DNA of 64,000 nucleotides, taken from positions 1 through 64,000 of the forward strand of contig NZ_JAKZEY010000052.1 in NCBI RefSeq assembly GCF_022808955.1, read 5' to 3'. The notes beneath the pieces were generated by a model that was not told the origin of the DNA, did no database searches, and worked only from the letters and a program-made list of their open reading frames with translations. A program made the position numbers and the translations under genes. Positions 21,907 to 51,482 of the stretch are shown piece after piece. Origin of the DNA: Anaerococcus sp. AGMB09787 (GTDB taxonomy: Bacteria; Bacillota; Clostridia; Tissierellales; Peptoniphilaceae). Positions within the stretch are counted from its first letter, which is position 1; every line of letters begins with the position of its first letter.

Positions 21907-22812
21907 CTACCTTAATAATAAATCATTAAGAAAATCATCCTCAATCATTTTAAGATTAAAAATATTTTCTATATTTTCCATAGCTTCTTCTAATGGTATT
22001 TTTGAGCTTTTCCATCCTTGACCATCAGTTATCCAAACAAATACGACATCATCATTTGAAGTATTGACTAGGTTATTAAGGGTTTGAAATTCTCCAGATA
22101 CAGACTTGAGTTTTGAACCCCCTCCTCCATAATAGTTTGTTTCAAATACATAAAGTTTATTTTTTTCTTTATCAAATAAGACTCCGTCAAATCTTCTTTT
22201 TGACTTATCGACAGGGACATTTATATTCCATTCTTTTAAAATTTTATCTGAAGTAGCTTGTTCCATGTGTTCAAATTTAAATTTTTCAGATATATCTTCA
22301 AGTATTCTTGTTAAGATTTTCTCCATATTAGTACCAGACCTATTTTTTCTAGCATTGGTGTCTAATCCTGTCTCAACACCATAAACATAATCTACCAAGC
22401 TTCTCTTAGCGTCTTTCTTCAAAAAATCTAACAAGCCCGATTTTTTTAAAAAGTCAACATATTTTTCAATATTATTTGTATCTATATTATGAAAATTTAA
22501 ACTTTCTATTTCCATATTCTTCCCTTTTAGAAATAGTATATCTATTTTACTATCCCTACAAGCTATTAATGAAGGGATCGCTTTTAGTAAGTTTGGTTGA
22601 GAGGTAAATAAATTAGTAGCTTCTTCTACTATGTTCTCTTTTCCAATTAAATAATTTAATGTATTTAGTTCCACCTCGTATTTTCTTGTATTATTAACAA
22701 CCTTCTCCCAGTTCACAAAAAAATCAGGTGTTTTATTTGTTACACTTAAAGTATCAATAAAATACTTTATCTTTTCATTAGTTTTTAAATTTTGGTACTC
22801 GCTTAAAATCAT
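21907..22812 (-). CDS. dpnB: DpnII-type restriction endonuclease (GATC)
   Basis: Restriction enzyme expected to cut unmethylated GATC. The 301 residues match the layout of the DpnII/MboI group by eye: a helical N-terminus (KNLKTNEKIKYFIDTL-like), the central IACRDSKIDIL segment, and a C-terminal nuclease region with DGVLFDKEKNKLYVFETNYYGGGGSK, giving a D..ExN pattern. I start at ATG 22812 (GAGG eight bases upstream) rather than a TTG fifteen bases earlier. It sits between the two methylase genes. Confidence 0.85.
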   Translation of the reverse strand: MILSEYQNLKTNEKIKYFIDTLSVTNKTPDFFVNWEKVVNNTRKYEVELNTLNYLIGKENIVEEATNLFTSQPNLLKAIPSLIACRDSKIDILFLKGKNMEIESLNFHNIDTNNIEKYVDFLKKSGLLDFLKKDAKRSLVDYVYGVETGLDTNARKNRSGTNMEKILTRILEDISEKFKFEHMEQATSDKILKEWNINVPVDKSKRRFDGVLFDKEKNKLYVFETNYYGGGGSKLKSVSGEFQTLNNLVNTSNDDVVFVWITDGQGWKSSKIPLEEAMENIENIFNLKMIEDDFLNDLLLR

Positions 22813-22823
22813 ATTTAATTTCC

Positions 22824-23582
22824 TCAATTATACTTATTATTTATTGTAAAAATCAGTCTGTTTTTAGCTATATCATAAAATTCTTTTTCTTTCTCAATTC
22901 CTATTGCTCTTCTATCTAATTTAATACAAGCTTCTAGGGTAGTTCCAGAGCCCATAAAACAATCAAGTACAAGATCATTTTCAGCAGATGATGCTAATAC
23001 TATTCTTTCAATTATACTTATAGGTTTTTGAGTTGGATGGTAGCCAAATCTTTTTTCTTTTTTTGAAACTGTAGATGTTGTCCGTACATCTTTCATTTGC
23101 TTTCCGTTGTTTAATTCTTTCATTAATTCATAATTAAAATAATGCTTACTTTTAGAACTTTTTTTTGCCCATAAAATAGTTTCTGTTGAATGGGTAAACA
23201 TCCTACAAGATAAATTAGGTGCTGGATTTGTTTTTTGCCACGTTATATTATTTAGTATCTTGAATTTTAATTTGTTCATAAGATATCCTATATAATAAAT
23301 ATTGTGCATAGTTCCAAACACCCATATACTACCATTTGGTTTTAATATTCTCTTTGATTCTTTTAAAAATTCAAAATAAAACGTCTCTACTGGAATTTTG
23401 GCTTTGTCCCAATCGCCTTTATTTACGGATGATACTTTGCCAGATTTACAAGTTATGCCATCATTAGATAAAAAATAAGGAGGATCTGTAACTATAAGAT
23501 CTATACTATCGCTTTTTATTTTTGGCAATACAGTAAAAGCATCTTGATTAAATATGACTGTTTTTTTATCTAATTTTTCCAT
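22824..23582 (-). CDS. dpnA: DNA adenine methyltransferase, DpnA type
   Basis: Beta-class N6-adenine methylase: the catalytic TDPPYFLSNDG comes first and the SAM motif (LDCFMGSGTT) is near the C-terminus. In the pneumococcal DpnII system the equivalent DpnA methylates single-stranded DNA and protects incoming transforming DNA. The start is ATG 23582, with AAGGTGG upstream; a GTG 15 bases earlier is less likely. The product is 252 residues. It is the first gene of the operon, which runs A-B-M, unlike the M-A-B order in Streptococcus pneumoniae. Confidence 0.9.
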   Translation of the reverse strand: MEKLDKKTVIFNQDAFTVLPKIKSDSIDLIVTDPPYFLSNDGITCKSGKVSSVNKGDWDKAKIPVETFYFEFLKESKRILKPNGSIWVFGTMHNIYYIGYLMNKLKFKILNNITWQKTNPAPNLSCRMFTHSTETILWAKKSSKSKHYFNYELMKELNNGKQMKDVRTTSTVSKKEKRFGYHPTQKPISIIERIVLASSAENDLVLDCFMGSGTTLEACIKLDRRAIGIEKEKEFYDIAKNRLIFTINNKYN

Positions 23583-23634
23583 TCTAATATGCCCCACCTT
23601 ATAACTACCTTAAATAATTGGATTTGATATTTAT

Positions 23635-24525: not shown

Positions 24526-24845
24526 ATAAACCTCCGTAAATGTTTTTGTCGTTATTACATTTTATACGAAGTTAGTATGAGTTTTTTCTTACATATACTG
24601 TCGCATTTGATTTTACACGTTATAAAACTTATAAAGATTAAATACTTTCGATTGAAATTTGATAATAATATCAACAAATTACAAAACAACTTAAGGATTA
24701 TTTGTACTTTATTTCCAATATTTTCTTACTCTTTACTTAATAATATTATATTGCCTTTGTTATTAATTTAGGGTCTATAACATATCGTGTTGGTAATGGT
24801 TATTGATGATTTGTCACTTTTTATAATTCGATTTTTAAAAAAAGA

Positions 24846-24916
24846 AGACATATTTAATCATTTACCTTATGATTGAATTAGCTACAACAAAACATTAAAT
24901 CAGATTAAATATGTCT
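24846..24916. repeat. 14-base inverted repeat inside ISL3 remnant
   Basis: AGACATATTTAATC (24846-24859) and GATTAAATATGTCT (24903-24916) are perfect complements 43 bases apart, directly before the transposase start. In an RNA they would form a stem over the start region, a common way to limit read-through expression of transposases. Confidence 0.7.
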
Positions 24917-25329
24917 ATTTCTTATTTTTTTACAAATTTGCTAAATGTCAAAGACCCTAATATAGAATTTTAGAATGCTATTGACCATAAGGTTATTAGG
25001 AGAGTTAAGTATTCGCTTATTAATGCTAACCAATCATTCTTGTCCTAATTTCTCTTGTAAGACTTTTATTATACTCTTATTATTTACTTGAAGAAATAAA
25101 ATATGTTTTGCAAGTCTTATGGTCGTTATTTTCTTGTTTCTTCTATTATTGTTGATGAGTATTGTTGTATTTCCAATCAAGTTAAGAGGTCTATTTTATT
25201 CGCTCTTACTACGAAGGTTTCTATAAATGATATGGCTTTTGATAATTTTGTTTCCTCCTATACTATTTCCAGGGTTTTAGCTAAGTTTGATAATTGTTTT
25301 TTACCAAGACGATTTGACAAAGAGCCTTA
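24911..25329 (+). pseudogene. ISL3-family transposase, N-terminal fragment
   Basis: From ATG 24911 the translation reads MSISYFFTNLLNVKDPNI, the usual ISL3 opening. Stop codons and a deletion interrupt it around 24970-25085. It resumes with CKSYGRYFLVSSIIVDEYCC and ISNQVKRSILFAL, which is the zinc-ribbon and helical N-terminal domain. It then ends abruptly in the right terminal repeat. The DDE catalytic region is absent. Confidence 0.8.
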
Positions 25330-25351
25330 ATTTATATATTACACCCTATAT

Positions 25352-25837
25352 TTATATGATATAATTTTTTATATTTCTTATTATAAAAAAATATATGAAC
25401 AAATTACCTAATCCATGGTATAAATCAAAAGGTAAAGAACTTAAATATAAAACACAAAAATTATTCAACCCTGTTAATAACAGACTTTGTAAAATCGTAA
25501 TAAAAAATCCGTAAACAAAGCCTGATAAAAACATAATAAGAGAAATATAGTAACTATTCTTATTAGCAAATTTATTAAATGTATAAGCAAATATTATCAC
25601 TACAAAATAAGACAGTATCTGTAAAATAATCCAAAAATCCGGACTTATCAAAAAATCGCTTATTATCAAAACCAATGTACTTATAATATTTGCCTCACAC
25701 ATCTTTCTTTTAATTGCATAATAAACAACCATAGGTGTTAAGATTTGAACATTGGGTAATACTCTAACATATACTCTAAATATTACACAAATAGCTATAA
25801 TAGCGGCAAGCCTACATATATCTTGTGCTTTTTTCAT
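25352..25837 (-). CDS. Small multi-pass membrane protein, ECF S-component-like
   Basis: The 161-residue protein is almost entirely hydrophobic with about five membrane segments. The early segment RVLPNVQILTPMVVYYAI resembles the first loop of substrate-binding (S) components of ECF vitamin transporters, but I cannot assign a ligand. It is the last gene of the radical SAM/ABC operon, 36 bases after the exporter gene and with its own AAGGAT ribosome site. It could import a cofactor or precursor for the modifying enzymes (for example a cobalamin-related compound) or serve in immunity. Both are guesses. Confidence 0.5.
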   Translation of the reverse strand: MKKAQDICRLAAIIAICVIFRVYVRVLPNVQILTPMVVYYAIKRKMCEANIISTLVLIISDFLISPDFWIILQILSYFVVIIFAYTFNKFANKNSYYISLIMFLSGFVYGFFITILQSLLLTGLNNFCVLYLSSLPFDLYHGLGNLFIYFFIIRNIKNYII

Positions 25838-25873
25838 AAATCCTTATATCTATTGAAAATTCTAGCATTATTA

Positions 25874-27388
25874 CTATATCTCAATAACTTCATCAAATTT
25901 CTTGATAATATTATCATCCATTTTGTGGGAGATTATTATTACTGTTGAATCCAAGGAAAGTAGCTCATTCAATATTGTATTTGAATTTACCTGATCTATA
26001 GCTGAAGTCGGTTCATCGTATATCATTATAGGATTTACATCGACCAGAGATCTTAATATAGCTATCCTCATCATCTCTCCACCAGATAGACCTTCTTCGG
26101 AGCTAACTAAGTTATCTTGATTTTTCTTTAAATTAACTTTTCCCATCAAGGCCTTTATATCCATATTACTTGATCTATAGAATTTTATGTTCTCTTCTAC
26201 ACTTTTATCCAATATAGTAGGCTTTTGATCTACATACAAAATATAATCTCTAAAGTCAAAACTGGATATATCTTGATTATTTAACAAAACTTCACCATTT
26301 TTAGGAGATATTTCACCGGCTAGAATTTTGGCAAGGGTAGACTTTCCCTTTCCGCTTTCTCCCCTAATCAAATATTTTTTACCATAGTTAAATTTATAGG
26401 AAAAATCTTTTAATATAACTTTATCGTCATAAGAAAAATCAATATTTTTAGCTATTAATTCAATTGGTTTTGATAACTGTACTTTTTCTCTTTCTACTAT
26501 AGGAGTAACTAGAGAATCTTTTACCTTATCGTATATAGGCTTAGCTTCCTTGTACATATTCATAAGTGATGCCAGAGAAATGACAGGATCAACTAAATAA
26601 TTCATAAGTTGTACAACTGCCAGTATTGCTCCTATTTCTATCTCTCCCTTAAAAGCCAAATAACCACCTGACAAATATATAAGTAAATAAGATAATGAAC
26701 CTAAACTTTGTGAACTTATGTTGGATAGGATATTTATAGACTTTAAATCTCTTCTATTTTGTTCATGTTGTGTTTCAATTAGATTTTTTTCTTTTACAAC
26801 TTCTTCTTCAATCTGATACCTTATAAATTCATTTTTATTTCCTATTCTCTTTGCAATATACTTTTGATAAAAATCATAAAAACTGTTAAAAGCCTTGGAT
26901 TTTTTCTCGATATTTTTTCCGAAAATTATAGGTCCTACTAGAGGCAAAGCTGAAGCTATTACAGCTATAGGTAGCAATTTGAAATTTACATAAATTATTG
27001 AAAGTACAGCAAAAATCATGGTAAAAAATAAATTTATCATATTAAAGATAACCATAAATCTGCTAGAATAAAGTGCCTCCGTATTAGTGGTATAATTGGC
27101 TATATTTGCCTCCGATTTACTTCTTATGTCCCTTTTAAAGATTTCATTCTTTAAAAAGGTAAACTCTTCCATACCTAGATTAAATATCATTCTAAAAGCT
27201 ATGTTTGAAGATGTAAAATTAATAATTACAAGAAGAAGCATAACAAATAAGCTTATATTAAAAGCGTTTAAATCCAAATTTGAAATAGCTGTTACAATTT
27301 TTCCTGTGTATATTCCCATCATAGATAAGGTTAAAGCTGTAATAAGCAACAGCAAACTTATTAATATATAATATATTTTCTTTTTCAT
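25874..27388 (-). CDS. ABC exporter (membrane domain fused to ATPase)
   Basis: A 504-residue half-transporter. An N-terminal membrane domain of about six helices (1-300) is followed by an ATPase with Walker A GESGKGKST (about 345), signature LSGGE, Walker B IMIYDEPTSAID and switch histidine ISHKMDD. The gene starts by a one-base overlap (TAATG) with the stop of the radical SAM gene, so the two are coupled. It is paralogous to the exporters at 52272-53813 and, more distantly, 60676-62259. Within this operon it most likely exports the modified peptide. No peptidase C39 domain is present, so leader removal would need another protease. Confidence 0.85.
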   Translation of the reverse strand: MKKKIYYILISLLLLITALTLSMMGIYTGKIVTAISNLDLNAFNISLFVMLLLVIINFTSSNIAFRMIFNLGMEEFTFLKNEIFKRDIRSKSEANIANYTTNTEALYSSRFMVIFNMINLFFTMIFAVLSIIYVNFKLLPIAVIASALPLVGPIIFGKNIEKKSKAFNSFYDFYQKYIAKRIGNKNEFIRYQIEEEVVKEKNLIETQHEQNRRDLKSINILSNISSQSLGSLSYLLIYLSGGYLAFKGEIEIGAILAVVQLMNYLVDPVISLASLMNMYKEAKPIYDKVKDSLVTPIVEREKVQLSKPIELIAKNIDFSYDDKVILKDFSYKFNYGKKYLIRGESGKGKSTLAKILAGEISPKNGEVLLNNQDISSFDFRDYILYVDQKPTILDKSVEENIKFYRSSNMDIKALMGKVNLKKNQDNLVSSEEGLSGGEMMRIAILRSLVDVNPIMIYDEPTSAIDQVNSNTILNELLSLDSTVIIISHKMDDNIIKKFDEVIEI

Positions 27389-28311
27389 TATTTCTCCTTT
27401 GTCAAGTAATCATTAAGTGATAAAATATAATCAAGATACTTATTATCTGAAAAAAGGTAATAACACAATTCACAAGATGAGGTTACTCTATCAGGGTAAG
27501 CTATACCTTTTGATTCAGCTATTTTAATAAAAGGTCTAAATCCTTTATTTCTAAGATATAAAAGTATTAAATGATTCTCAAGATTTTTAAAAATCTTAAA
27601 TATACTGTCATGATAAATATTTCCCAAATGTAAATCTATATATTTAGCATAAGGTGAACAACAAGGATTAACTGATCCGTCATACTCTATTTCGAAAGAA
27701 TATCCTTTTCCGCATTTTAAATTATCATACAAATTATAATTAATTATTTCCTCTTTTTGTATTATACTAGCCCTGCCAATCGGATAAACAGGGAAAACTC
27801 TGATATTTGATCTTGCTAAATATTTTTTTATAGGGTTTATATTTTCAGATAAGTTACTGCTATTAATAATTGCAATCTGCACTTCACTTTTAATATTTAA
27901 TTTATTACAAACCTTCAACAAATTTATTAAATTTTGACTTTTGACAAATTTATAATGAAACTCATCTACACTAATTGTTATCATTTTTAAGCCAAGTTTA
28001 TTTAATTTAATTAGAAGTGAATAAGTAAATTCATAGTTATTAGCCCGTAACCCACTCGTTACTAACGTTAGATACCTACCGGTATTAGCCAATATTTCAA
28101 AATACTTGATTAATATATCAGTATTCGAAAAAGGTTCTCCTCCAGTTAGACATATTGCTTTAATTCTATCACATTTACATATTTCATCTATCATTTTTTT
28201 GAAATAAGAAAAAGAAATATACTCATAACCATACTTATAATCTTGACAACAATGTGCACATGATAAAATACATTTTTTATTTACTTCAATTGCACAAGAA
28301 TTATAATTCAT
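27388..28311 (-). CDS. Radical SAM protein with C-terminal cysteine region
   Basis: Radical SAM enzyme with the canonical cluster site C14-x3-C18-x2-C21 (CILSCAHC) and the SAM-binding LTGGEPF. The C-terminal third contains CGKGYSFEIEYDGSVNPCC and later SCELCYY, a SPASM/Twitch-like pattern that may bind an auxiliary iron-sulphur cluster. The 307 residues fit peptide-modifying radical SAM proteins. It overlaps the B12-radical SAM gene by eleven bases and has GGAGAG before its start. The substrate is presumably one or both of the small proteins encoded upstream. This is inferred from context. Confidence 0.75.
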   Translation of the reverse strand: MNYNSCAIEVNKKCILSCAHCCQDYKYGYEYISFSYFKKMIDEICKCDRIKAICLTGGEPFSNTDILIKYFEILANTGRYLTLVTSGLRANNYEFTYSLLIKLNKLGLKMITISVDEFHYKFVKSQNLINLLKVCNKLNIKSEVQIAIINSSNLSENINPIKKYLARSNIRVFPVYPIGRASIIQKEEIINYNLYDNLKCGKGYSFEIEYDGSVNPCCSPYAKYIDLHLGNIYHDSIFKIFKNLENHLILLYLRNKGFRPFIKIAESKGIAYPDRVTSSCELCYYLFSDNKYLDYILSLNDYLTKEK

Positions 28312-30136
28312 TTAACTCTCCAATAGGCTCATAGCCTGATTTAATAAGTATTTTTTCCCTTATTTCATAGTCTTTCTCATTAGTGCAATAAGAAAAATCG
28401 AAGTTAAATAAATCCCCATATATCACATATATTCCGGAATTTAATTCAATTTCTTTATTTAAATACAATTTCTTTATATTTACTTTTGAGCATAGAGAAA
28501 AAAAGCATTTTTTATTTACAAATAATAATTTATTCAGAATTTTTAACTCTAAAAAATATATATATTTGAAATCTCCAATTAATATCGGCTTAAAATACTC
28601 TTCATTAATTAAATTCTTTATTTTGTTTATATATTTATATTCGAAGTCATCATCTATTTCTTCAATTTTAGATATATCTGACTTAATTGACTTTAAATCC
28701 TTTTCCATCATTTTATATAATTTCAGCATACCAATTTTTTTGACTGAATTTTCTATAATAATTGGAAAATATATTTTCATAGTCATTAGGATCTCATTCA
28801 AAGTTGATATAACAGCGTAATCCTGTCTTATTTCACTATCAAAATCATAAAAAGAGGATGATAATTCTTTGTTATTTTCTACAAATACTTTACAATCTTT
28901 GTTCTTTAATATTTTGTACTGATGTAATGGTAAATGTAAAGATTCTTCATTCAAAAATAATTTATCTACTACTTTATTAGTCTCTTCAGTTTTAGGGTAC
29001 GGTGAAAAGATATGTAATTGTAAATTTATATTATTATATTCAAAAAAATCCTCATAAAAATTGATAGTTTTCTTAAATTCATTTAAAGTTTCATTGGCAA
29101 AGCCATATATCAACGAAACAGTTACATCAATTCCTATATTTGCTAAATATTTAATAATTTTTTTTGCATATCCTATATTTAAATTCTTATTTATATCATT
29201 TTGTATAACATCAGATGCCGATTCTATACCCATGTAAATGCTTTTTAATCCTGATGATTTCATTAAATCTATTATTTTATTATCTAAAGTATCTGCTCTA
29301 GACGAACACGACCATAATATATTTATATTTTTCTCTAATATTTTATTACAGAAATCGGTTATATATATTCTATTAGAAGTAAATAGATCATCAATTATGT
29401 TAAAATTATTTATTCTGTATCTCTCTATATAATATTCAATTTCAGAAATCAAATCTTCGACAGGCTTCAATCTCGCTTTTCTTTTCCAAAATATAGATGT
29501 TGTACAAAATGAACAATTGTACGGGCAACCCCTGCCACCTTCCAAGTTGACACTTGAATTGTTATCACAAAATTTCATCAAATCTTTAATATAATACTTA
29601 TGTAAATTTATATTGGCTACTAGTTCAGGTGAACTGGTTTTCATAATCTCATCTTCTTTTCTATAATAGATACCTTTGATTTGTGATAAATCGACATTCT
29701 TCTTTATCAAACAATTCAATATATCAGATACAACATATTCTCCCTCACTATAAGCAACAATATCGACATAATCTAGATTAATCAAAATTTCATTTCCCAA
29801 CAAAGAAGCATGAGGTCCAGCAAATATAATAAAAATACTATCATTCTTACTTTTAATATATTTAGCTAATAAACAGGTCAGTGGAAATGTCTCACATACA
29901 GTATATAAGCTTATTATTTTAGGATCTAGTTCAAGAATATGATTTCCTACCTTTTCAATAGACTCTAAAGTATAATAATTTCCTATATCGTTATCATTGT
30001 AAAAATCAAAAGTATTAAAGACAAAAGAGTTATACCCTTTATCTTTTAAAATTTGATTTAAAATAAGCTGACCTATATAAGGAGAATTCCCGTTATTATA
30101 TATAACAAGCTCACCAACAAATATTATATCAAACAT
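28301..30136 (-). CDS. B12-binding domain radical SAM enzyme
   Basis: The 611-residue protein has an N-terminal cobalamin-binding-like Rossmann domain (about 1-150, with FAGPHASLLGNEIL), then a radical SAM core with CPYNCSFC (about 205-212), followed by the GIESAS segment and PYPKTEE. The last 200 residues are lysine/isoleucine-rich and not recognised. Enzymes of this class methylate unactivated carbons or make unusual C-C bonds, for example in peptide natural products. The gene follows two small paralogous genes by six bases. The region is strikingly AT-rich, suggesting transfer. Confidence 0.82.
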   Translation of the reverse strand: MFDIIFVGELVIYNNGNSPYIGQLILNQILKDKGYNSFVFNTFDFYNDNDIGNYYTLESIEKVGNHILELDPKIISLYTVCETFPLTCLLAKYIKSKNDSIFIIFAGPHASLLGNEILINLDYVDIVAYSEGEYVVSDILNCLIKKNVDLSQIKGIYYRKEDEIMKTSSPELVANINLHKYYIKDLMKFCDNNSSVNLEGGRGCPYNCSFCTTSIFWKRKARLKPVEDLISEIEYYIERYRINNFNIIDDLFTSNRIYITDFCNKILEKNINILWSCSSRADTLDNKIIDLMKSSGLKSIYMGIESASDVIQNDINKNLNIGYAKKIIKYLANIGIDVTVSLIYGFANETLNEFKKTINFYEDFFEYNNINLQLHIFSPYPKTEETNKVVDKLFLNEESLHLPLHQYKILKNKDCKVFVENNKELSSSFYDFDSEIRQDYAVISTLNEILMTMKIYFPIIIENSVKKIGMLKLYKMMEKDLKSIKSDISKIEEIDDDFEYKYINKIKNLINEEYFKPILIGDFKYIYFLELKILNKLLFVNKKCFFSLCSKVNIKKLYLNKEIELNSGIYVIYGDLFNFDFSYCTNEKDYEIREKILIKSGYEPIGELNEL

Positions 30137-30142
30137 TGCTCA

Positions 30143-30352
30143 TCATTTCTCTATATAAAAAGAGCCAATGCTAGCATTATTGTCTATATTCTTATATTCT
30201 AATTTATTATTCTTAACAAAGCACATAAACTCTTCATAAGTAATATCTATAAACAAATCATTATCTATGTATAGATCTAAATAAGATTTTTTTCTAAAAT
30301 CCCCTCTTTCAATGTAATCTTCCAATATCTTTTTCAATTTTTCTTCTAACAT
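30143..30352 (-). CDS. Small protein, candidate RiPP precursor 2
   Basis: The 69-residue acidic/lysine-rich protein has no signal peptide. It aligns with the preceding small protein: KSYLDLYIDND followed by an aromatic acidic helix (YEEFMCFVKNN) corresponds to KSLLDIYVDNN and FEDFCNLIQYN. The C-terminus ends NNASIGSFYIEK, matching KIGSLYLNV of the partner. A conserved N-terminal part and a short conserved C-terminal motif fit a leader plus core peptide for the radical SAM enzymes directly downstream. The ribosome site is GAGG. Alternatively, the pair could be accessory subunits of the enzymes. Confidence 0.6.
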   Translation of the reverse strand: MLEEKLKKILEDYIERGDFRKKSYLDLYIDNDLFIDITYEEFMCFVKNNKLEYKNIDNNASIGSFYIEK

Positions 30353-30365
30353 TTAAAAACCTCAA

Positions 30366-30605
30366 TTATACATTAAGATACAAAGATCCAATTTTAATGC
30401 CACATTGAACATCCGTATTATCTTTTATTAGCGATTTGTCAAGTGGACTTGTATTGTATTGAATTAGATTACAAAAGTCTTCAAAATCAATTAATTCATC
30501 AAAATTATTATCAACGTATATATCCAATAACGATTTATCCTGATTTATACTTAAGCTCATCATTTTGTTTATTAAAACTTCTTTTTTATCCAAAGTGACT
30601 TCCAT
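30366..30605 (-). CDS. Small protein, candidate RiPP precursor 1
   Basis: The 79-residue first gene of the radical SAM operon. Its start is ATG 30605, ten bases after AGGAGG; a longer frame from 30635 would begin inside the -10 box of the promoter and is impossible. It shares with the next protein the SLLDIYVDNN-type helix and the terminal IGS(F/L)Y motif. It differs in the segment before that motif (NTDVQCGIK), which includes a cysteine. The absence of a secretion signal, the duplication, and the neighbouring B12-radical SAM, radical SAM and exporter genes suggest a ribosomal peptide that is modified near its C-terminus. Confidence 0.6.
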   Translation of the reverse strand: MEVTLDKKEVLINKMMSLSINQDKSLLDIYVDNNFDELIDFEDFCNLIQYNTSPLDKSLIKDNTDVQCGIKIGSLYLNV

Positions 30606-30633
30606 ATAATGTTTTCCTCCTATATTTTTTCCC

Positions 30634-30661
30634 ATTTTACCAGCATTATTTTCTTTGTCAA
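30634..30661 (-). promoter_or_regulatory. Promoter of the radical SAM/peptide operon
   Basis: Leftward TTGACA (30656-30661), 16-base spacer, and TAAAAT (30634-30639) preceded by TGG, an extended -10. The leader is about 22 bases, ending in AGGAGG. Confidence 0.78.
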
Positions 30662-30750
30662 GTATTTTTATTAATTAATTTTTTATAACTATGAAATTTA
30701 TATAAATACTAAGGATTACTATAAATAATGTAAAATATTATCAAGTTAGC

Positions 30751-31407
30751 TTAAAGATTTTTCTTTTCAACCTCCTTGAATAGACCATCCACTATTGTCA
30801 AGATTCTATCCGATATTTTTTTTACAAAATCAAGGTCGTGGCTTACTATTATCACAAGTATGTCTTGTACTTTAAGAATTTTTATTATTTTTATCAAATT
30901 TTCTATGGCTTCCTTATCAAGGGCACTAGTCGGCTCGTCCAAACAAAGGATTTTGGGATCTAGCATGCAAGCTCTAGCTATGGCTACTCTTTGGGCTTGA
31001 CCACCAGAAAGCGTCGAAATTTTTTGATCTTTATAATCTGAAATCTCCAATAAATTTAATAACTTATTTGCTTTTTCTTCCATAGTCTTTATATCCATTT
31101 TATGGTATTTAGGCCCTAAGGTTAGATTTTGCCAGACATTCATATTTGCAAATAGGTTATATGATTGGAATACCATGCCGATTTGTCTTTTTTCTTGGTT
31201 TTGAGGATTATAAATTTTATCATCTATGAGTATTTGACCTGAGTCAAAGTCTTCTAGTCCGTTTATAACTCTCAAAAAGGTAGTCTTTCCTTCACCACTC
31301 CTCCCAAGGATTGAAACAATTTCTCCTGACCTAAGATTACAAGAGAGCTTGTCCCAAATTATTTTTTTATCAAATGATTTTTTTAGATTTCTTATTTTTA
31401 CTTCCAT
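30751..31407 (-). CDS. Polar amino-acid ABC transporter ATPase, GlnQ type
   Basis: ATPase of an amino-acid importer. Walker A GRSGEGKTT, signature LSGGQAQRVAIARA, Walker B ILCLDEPTSALD and switch histidine VSHDLDF are present in 218 residues, slightly short of the usual 240. It follows the permease gene by eight bases and the binding-protein gene further upstream, which completes the three-gene importer. Confidence 0.9.
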   Translation of the reverse strand: MEVKIRNLKKSFDKKIIWDKLSCNLRSGEIVSILGRSGEGKTTFLRVINGLEDFDSGQILIDDKIYNPQNQEKRQIGMVFQSYNLFANMNVWQNLTLGPKYHKMDIKTMEEKANKLLNLLEISDYKDQKISTLSGGQAQRVAIARACMLDPKILCLDEPTSALDKEAIENLIKIIKILKVQDILVIIVSHDLDFVKKISDRILTIVDGLFKEVEKKNL

Positions 31408-45156: not shown

Positions 45157-45194
45157 TATGCTAACAATAGTTTTATTTATAAAAATTTATGAAA

Positions 45195-45434
45195 AAACAG
45201 TAGGTTTATCTGATAAGCACAGAGAGTTGGGAGTAGGTGAGAGCCAATCTTTAGGATAAAACTGAAGATCATTTTTCTTTTGCAAACCTGAATTATAGTA
45301 GGGTCTGTCGCCGTGGTTGGCGTTATCAAAACCCAGCATTGCTAGATGCTAGAGAGCTTATTTTTATAATAAGAATAAAAGGTGGTACCGCGGAATTTTC
45401 GTCCTTTGTCTATTTTTAGGCAAGGGACTTTTTT
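45195..45434 (+). ncRNA. T-box leader, probable isoleucine specifier
   Basis: The diagnostic T-box sequence AGGTGGTACCGCGG is at 45380-45393, and stem I elements (AGAGAGTTGGGAGTAGGTGAGAGCC) lie at 45220-45244. In the 3' side of the specifier loop, GAAG-ATC-A offers the codon ATC (45268-45270), isoleucine. Uncharged tRNA would stabilise the antiterminator and allow expression of the transporter. Confidence 0.88.
45401..45434 (+). terminator. T-box terminator
   Basis: GTCCTTTGTC and GGCAAGGGAC form a stem with G-U pairs, followed by six T. It competes with the antiterminator formed by the T-box sequence. Confidence 0.85.
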
Positions 45435-51402: not shown

Positions 51403-51482
51403 GGTAGAGTAGGACTAAGGCGTTAAGTGCTAGAAAATGGGATGTTGTTTCTAGACGAAGATCTTAGCCCGCATCCGCTATC
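51403..51482 (+). ncRNA. THF riboswitch upstream of folT
   Basis: The second tetrahydrofolate riboswitch in the window: GGTAGAGTAGGACTAAGGCG, GTTAAGTG, GGGATGTTG and GCATCCGCTATC are all in the class positions, with GGTAG pairing with CTATC to close it. No terminator follows. Instead ATTTCCT (about 51486-51492) can pair with AGGAAAT, part of the ribosome site, so control looks translational. Confidence 0.88.

Follow-up and report, generated by a model that had tools for sequence, protein, structure and literature searches.

The window analysed here is a 64,000-nucleotide stretch of DNA from Anaerococcus sp. AGMB09787 (contig NZ_JAKZEY010000052.1, positions 1 to 64,000). On its minus strand lie six tightly spaced genes, at 25352-30605 with intergenic gaps of 13, 6, -11, -1 and 36 bases, which resemble an operon for a ribosomally synthesized and post-translationally modified peptide (RiPP). 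They encode two small peptides, two radical S-adenosylmethionine (SAM) enzymes, an ATP-binding cassette (ABC) exporter and the substrate-binding S-component of an energy-coupling factor (ECF) transporter. The features, in window positions and in the order of transcription, are as follows:

30634-30661, minus strand: promoter TTGACA-16 nt-TAAAAT with a TG extension (extended -10), the best site of the scanned region
30366-30605, minus strand: pepA, proposed precursor peptide, 79 residues, ending GIKIGSLYLNV
30143-30352, minus strand: pepB, proposed precursor peptide and pepA paralogue, 69 residues, ending NASIGSFYIEK
28301-30136, minus strand: B12-binding radical SAM enzyme, 611 residues, proposed peptide C-methyltransferase (ApyD and Radical_SAM profiles, structural model)
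27388-28311, minus strand: YydG/EpeE-like radical SAM enzyme, 307 residues, proposed peptide epimerase (TIGR04078, EpeE structures, fold search)
25874-27388, minus strand: ABC exporter with membrane domain and ATPase, 504 residues (NCBIfam and Pfam scans)
25352-25837, minus strand: CbrT-like ECF S-component, 161 residues, proposed for uptake of vitamin B12 (corrinoid) (match to 6fnp_A)

The initial annotation had placed six packed genes behind one strong extended -10 promoter. All the open reading frames (ORFs) are in place, and the promoter, which ends upstream of the pepA ribosome-binding site, matches the consensus at 11 of 12 positions, the best among the 53 promoter-like sites in 24800-31000. 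The number of such sites in that interval is not above chance, because shuffled sequences give a mean of 51.7, and the six genes presumably share a single transcript.

The start of pepA is the ATG at 30605, which is preceded by AGGAGG; a longer reading of 89 residues would begin within the -10 box. The local alignment of PepA and PepB scores 61, whereas shuffled sequences average 30.5 and none of 2000 shuffles reaches the real score. By this comparison the two are paralogues, with the boxes KS[LY]LD[IL]Y[VI]DN and, at the C-terminus, IGS[LF]Y in common. Neither peptide has a signal-like hydrophobic stretch, so that the earlier description of two paralogous proteins of 79 and 69 residues, lacking a secretion signal and ending in a common IGSLY/IGSFY motif, was accurate. 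Both are acidic (charges of -7 and -4). Neither has an NCBIfam match at E 1, including to the YydF family (TIGR04077), or a Pfam match over cut-off (PepA having been scanned in both as an 88-codon frame that contains the 79), and no match over cut-off to the nitrile-hydratase-like leader family of proteusins was found for either.

The motif CPYNCSFC begins at residue 204 of the 611-residue protein. The best NCBIfam match is ApyD (NF050148), with 199.5 bits against a cut-off of 750, and in Pfam the protein scores 77.9 bits for Radical_SAM and 18.7 bits for the B12-binding domain, under the cut-off of 32.1, so that the domain call rests on the fold and the family profiles. The best matches of the model (mean predicted local distance difference test score, pLDDT, of 77.4, falling below 50 over residues 541-611) are cobalamin-dependent enzymes, and its matches include OxsB, MgmA, TokK, AprD4, CysS and TsrM. 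With an N-terminal B12-binding domain, a CxxxCxxC motif and this fold, the protein is, as far as profiles and model can tell, a B12-type (class B) radical SAM enzyme, as had been proposed. In a 16-row tree it falls within a supported set of five rows (96/97) together with the enzymes of genomes G482, G463, G089 and G045, and in G463 and G089 the relative shares its cluster with YcaO proteins. This placement and these neighbours show that the enzyme family serves several kinds of peptide cluster, and its combination with a YydG-like gene may go back to one or two events.

ApyD of the aminopyruvatide system, the nearest named family, makes beta-methyl-Tyr near the peptide C-terminus and is described as containing a RiPP recognition element (PMC10635010); unlike that system, the window has no multinuclear non-heme iron-dependent oxidase (MNIO) or P450 gene among the six. 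The B12 enzyme might instead cross-link side chains, or catalyse another radical reaction, while the YydG-like enzyme epimerises, giving a macrocyclic peptide with D-residues. In favour of this, the similarities of the 611-residue protein to methylating families are all distant, and in biphenomycin-like RiPPs tyrosines are cross-linked by an enzyme of this B12-radical SAM type (PMC12257519). However, ApyD is a C-beta methyltransferase, and there is no partner for an aromatic cross-link within the last 22 residues of PepA because Y76 is the sole aromatic residue there. We regard this alternative as improbable.

In the 307-residue protein, CILSCAHC begins at residue 14. Its TIGR04078 score of 155 bits is below the 300-bit cut-off, as is that of a canonical-looking YydG on contig C40 of the same genome (142 bits); Macrococcus YydG scores 431. 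The three distinct solved sequences that match it at E <=0.01 are all YydG/EpeE (E 4e-28 for EpeE/YydG). A fold search with its model (mean pLDDT 72.9, five-row alignment) returned EpeE for all nine best chains, with template modelling (TM) scores on the query of 0.86-0.89 and E-values of 7e-21 to 9e-20, the next fold being at 1e-6. The radical SAM and C-terminal cysteines of EpeE are kept in the window's protein, whose extra cysteines C217, C218, C280 and C283 are also kept in its relatives; C218 aligns with the catalytic Cys that is mutated to Ala in the C223A structures of EpeE, so that this residue is kept. The initial annotation was right about the motif and the extra C-terminal cysteines; the enzyme is not of a generic SPASM type but YydG/EpeE-like. 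Judged by alignment and fold, the 307-residue protein is distantly related to the peptide epimerase EpeE/YydG, and it probably flips amino acids to the mirror form.

No named RiPP class had been recognised for this combination of genes. Since the second radical SAM enzyme is YydG/EpeE-like, the operon belongs beside the epipeptide class, that is, the locus yydFGHIJ / epeXEPAB of Bacillus subtilis and of the Macrococcus plasmid p18KM1742-1 (roles of the yyd genes are taken from PMC7026026). It is like that locus in having a YydG/EpeE-type enzyme, with EpeE fold and catalytic Cys, and a small precursor gene. In the Macrococcus plasmid record the YydG gene adjoins an annotated YydF precursor, which scores 75 bits on TIGR04077 (cut-off 35), and a peptidase and two ABC genes are present. 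In contrast, the window operon has no YydF-family precursor, and none of its six genes matches the YydH/LiaK protease or is a split YydI/YydJ ABC pair; what it has in addition to the epipeptide locus is another peptide gene, the B12-radical SAM enzyme, the CbrT-like gene and an exporter in one piece. From its gene content, then, it is not a canonical epipeptide locus. A separate, canonical-looking yyd locus does lie in the same genome (contig C40, L032 7156-10336), with a YydG-like gene, ABC-pair-like genes, a YydH/LiaK match of 69.5 bits (cut-off 225) and a weak YydF-family peptide of 22 bits (cut-off 35). Direct kinship of PepA and PepB with YydF was rejected, as 1761 and 710 of 2000 shuffles, respectively, reach their scores against the C40 peptide.

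The polytheonamide-type proteusins, with the PoyD epimerase and the PoyB/PoyC methyltransferases, combine epimerisation and B12-dependent C-methylation in one pathway (PMC5682303), as is proposed here for the window operon. The proteusin epimerase is said to have no significant homology to EpeE (PMC8326336).

A second genome of the genus (G023, locus L031) keeps the operon. The proteins of the four larger genes are 97-99% identical between the two, PepA is 91% identical, and PepB agrees at 66 of its 69 positions. A single scan of genome contigs found one distinct, near-identical locus in the Anaerococcus metagenome-assembled genome SUG356, apparently the same genome as G023. Between G023 and the window's genome the enzymes and the exporter are under purifying selection, with ratios of nonsynonymous to synonymous substitution rates (dN/dS) of about 0.12-0.16 (0.11 for the folE control). 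Unlike these, the peptides diverge mainly by replacements, although the numbers are small: in PepA, 8 base changes alter 7 residues, of which six lie within residues 4-22 and the seventh is residue 57, and PepB differs by 3 residues from 3 base changes, including A60V adjoining the core box. Residues 58-79 of PepA are unchanged. Two transporter genes adjoining the operon in G023 (L031 5468-6717) are each split into two frames and are intact in the window; an error of the metagenome assembly could be the cause.

A related locus (L026) in G045, a genome of genus g16, has a 44-residue peptide ending GVKVGNVYVDVA, two YydG-like enzymes, a B12-radical SAM enzyme and an ABC protein that is 29% identical to the window's over 396 aligned columns. 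PepA and the 44-residue peptide have the C-terminal box G[VI]K[VI]G[SN]xY in common, and only 13 of 2000 shuffles reach their alignment score; the 44-residue peptide has no TIGR04077 match at E 0.001, and 71 of 2000 shuffles reach its score against the C40 peptide. The initial annotation had asked whether homologues of the peptides always lie beside the B12-radical SAM enzyme. This holds in the window's own genome (G000), G023 and G045, which are few cases.

This locus also bears on two further explanations. The first is a two-component RiPP in which each radical SAM enzyme serves one peptide and no peptide is doubly modified. Two peptides and two radical SAM enzymes do stand in one operon, and the two-peptide RiPP thuricin CD likewise has two radical SAM enzymes (PMC12093266); yet PepA and PepB have both the leader and the core box in common, and in G045 one core-box peptide was found, among ORFs of at least 28 residues, beside three radical SAM genes. 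We rate this explanation slightly below that of cross-linking. In the second, PepA and PepB are regulators or accessory proteins, and the enzymes act on something else. The acidic charges, the absence of a secretion signal and of a double-Gly cleavage site, and the lack of a protease gene among the six would all suit such proteins, but pepA and pepB are paralogous and the first genes of the operon, their C-terminal box recurs in the G045 peptide, and the YydG gene of the plasmid record adjoins its YydF precursor; it appears very unlikely.

The last two genes were correctly annotated as an ABC exporter and an ECF-S-like small membrane protein, and the latter can now be described as CbrT-like. 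No peptidase domain was matched in the exporter in Pfam. The 161-residue S-component has no Pfam or NCBIfam match, and its sole match by sequence to a solved structure, up to E 10, is 6fnp_A (E 1.2e-12, residues 5-150), the CbrT of Lactobacillus delbrueckii; 6FNP is the deposition of a paper showing ATP-driven transport of cobalamin by ECF-CbrT (PMC5997447). On this homology we infer that it imports vitamin B12 (corrinoid) in the host, which ties it to the B12 enzyme of the operon. No second copy was found in its own genome at E 0.001, and matches occur in 33 of the 150 genomes searched, the window's own included. Relatives in five other genomes of the genus (loci L079, L081, L083, L085, L086) share a single gene order, with neighbours of corrinoid-linked appearance, whereas the window's copy sits inside a peptide-modification operon. 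At L079, Pfam gave URO-D, the S-component (below two cut-offs), DUF4430 and RACo for all four proteins, and at L081 it gave a DUF4430 protein. Of 20 S-component loci, among them that of the window, 4 carry a cobalamin riboswitch, and all four belong to distant relatives; none was found in the window. For the ECF module, a search covering EcfT (CbiQ family) gave one match in the genome, on contig C11 (163.9 bits).

The biosynthetic gene CobQ has partial 52-bit matches in the window's genome and in G023 (cut-off 309.9), and the host may accordingly be a B12 auxotroph, judging from this one gene. In G045 a CobQ match over the cut-off covers the first 267 of 477 positions; the related cluster there (L026 3559-10701) adjoins this CobQ-type gene and CbiB, a further cobalamin biosynthesis gene.

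Taken together, the homologies, the folds, the kept catalytic Cys, the gene order, the paralogy of the peptides, the presence of the operon in a second genome and the core box in G045 support the earlier RiPP reading, and we think it reasonably likely that the operon makes a RiPP from twin precursors that are epimerised and C-methylated near IGSxY and exported, with dedicated B12 uptake. PepA and PepB would be leader-core precursors, with KSxLDxYxDN as leader box and IGS[LF]Y as core box. The YydG/EpeE-like enzyme would epimerise at least one core residue, likeliest the beta-branched Ile before GS (I72 in PepA, I62 in PepB), and the B12-radical SAM enzyme would C-methylate a nearby unactivated carbon, either in an aliphatic side chain or, following the example of ApyD, at the Tyr C-beta (Y76, Y66). 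Export of the product would be the task of the ABC protein, a protease encoded elsewhere would remove the leader, and the CbrT-like S-component would work with the general ECF module of the cell to supply corrinoid for the methylating enzyme.

Several observations weigh against this reading. Both radical SAM enzymes score far under their NCBIfam cut-offs, and in the 611-residue model the C-terminal part is helical, its last 71 residues lacking confident modelling. EpeE D210, which is mutated in structure 8ai6, is Ser205 in the 307-residue protein, a departure that could mean altered chemistry. In a seven-row alignment this position is Ser or Thr in five rows (the window, both G045 enzymes, which have Thr, G018 and L121) and acidic in two (Asp in the C40 YydG, Glu in Macrococcus YydG); of the Ser/Thr rows, G018 and L121 come from loci that lack a B12 enzyme. 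None of the six genes encodes a protease. The S-component has a higher dN/dS, 0.41, and carries H141Y in G023. In G045 the B12-radical SAM gene is interrupted by a transposase and its product pairs in the tree with that of G089 rather than with the window's enzyme, and PepB alone is no closer to the G045 peptide than chance, since 689 of 2000 shuffles reach the score. Finally, YydG-like genes are rarely linked to a B12-radical SAM gene. When 17 other loci with YydG-family hits were searched by tblastn for the B12 enzyme of the window, the match was strong in L031 and L026 and weak in L049, where it lies some genes away, and the other 14 gave nothing at E 1e-6.

More tentatively, the operon could represent a RiPP class whose hallmark is the joint action of an EpeE-type epimerase and a B12-radical SAM methyltransferase on IGSxY peptides, with its own B12 importer subunit; as the host may not make B12, production could then be gated by the B12 of its neighbours. 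If true, its short precursors (44-79 residues), which are easily made, would allow mirror flipping and C-methylation to be studied outside the large polytheonamide system, and the vitamin importer gene among peptide-modification genes would offer a clear and testable example of a biosynthetic cluster that brings its own cofactor supply, with peptide production linked to B12 exchange in the microbial community. Among the matches listed in a search of open-licence literature, no title or start of an abstract described this combination of enzymes.

YydG-family genes are rare in the sampled genomes, which form overlapping order, phylum and class samples that each count the window's own genome. With the window's protein as query, YydG-like matches occur in 11 of 249 genomes of the order at E 1e-15, and TIGR04078 at E 1e-30 matches in 3 of 398 genomes of the phylum and 6 of 391 of the class. 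B12-radical SAM matches were found in 10 of the 249 order genomes at E 1e-45 and 9 of the 391 class genomes at E 1e-55. Both enzymes are matched in three genomes of the order sample (G000, G023 and G045) and three of the class sample (G000, G045 and G442, where they lie far apart). As relatives of the B12-radical SAM enzyme occur in genomes with no YydG-like match, its presence is not enough to define the system. Viral and phage collections gave no relative of the YydG-like enzyme, and on plasmids the relatives of both enzymes are distant, all under 60% identity.

Other peptide-modification loci were noticed during these searches. At L119 (6576-10941), a small ORF, a YydG-like enzyme, a 170-residue protein and a LanM synthetase occur together, with the YydG-like gene two genes before LanM; an epimerised lanthipeptide is a possible product. 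The 611-residue protein was at one point a candidate for the sole B12 enzyme of its genome, as a Pfam search for B12-binding domains hit, besides this protein, a single other place, which by eye resembles inosine monophosphate (IMP) dehydrogenase; this was rejected, since that search missed additional class-B-like radical SAM proteins, which may bind B12, on contigs C31 and C52. Contig C31 (L135 341-10111) has three of these in a row, with a YcaO protein and, by eye, two ABC-transporter-like proteins, possibly another peptide-modification cluster. On C52 (L134 4814-9352), one such protein accompanies a FibroRumin-like radical SAM maturase, a 78-residue Cys-containing ORF and an ABC-exporter-like protein, and recurring copies of one pair of genes flank the set.

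In the window itself, GC content is low between 21 and 31 kb, at 0.236-0.293 in 10 of 10 one-kb steps against a window mean of 0.339, and a DpnII-family restriction endonuclease lies beside an N6/N4 DNA methylase at 21907-23597 (minus strand) in this same AT-rich region. Base composition and this gene pair together make the region around the operon look like an acquired island. On the plus strand, the window also has a T-box leader at 45178-45409 and a tetrahydrofolate riboswitch at 51403-51482.

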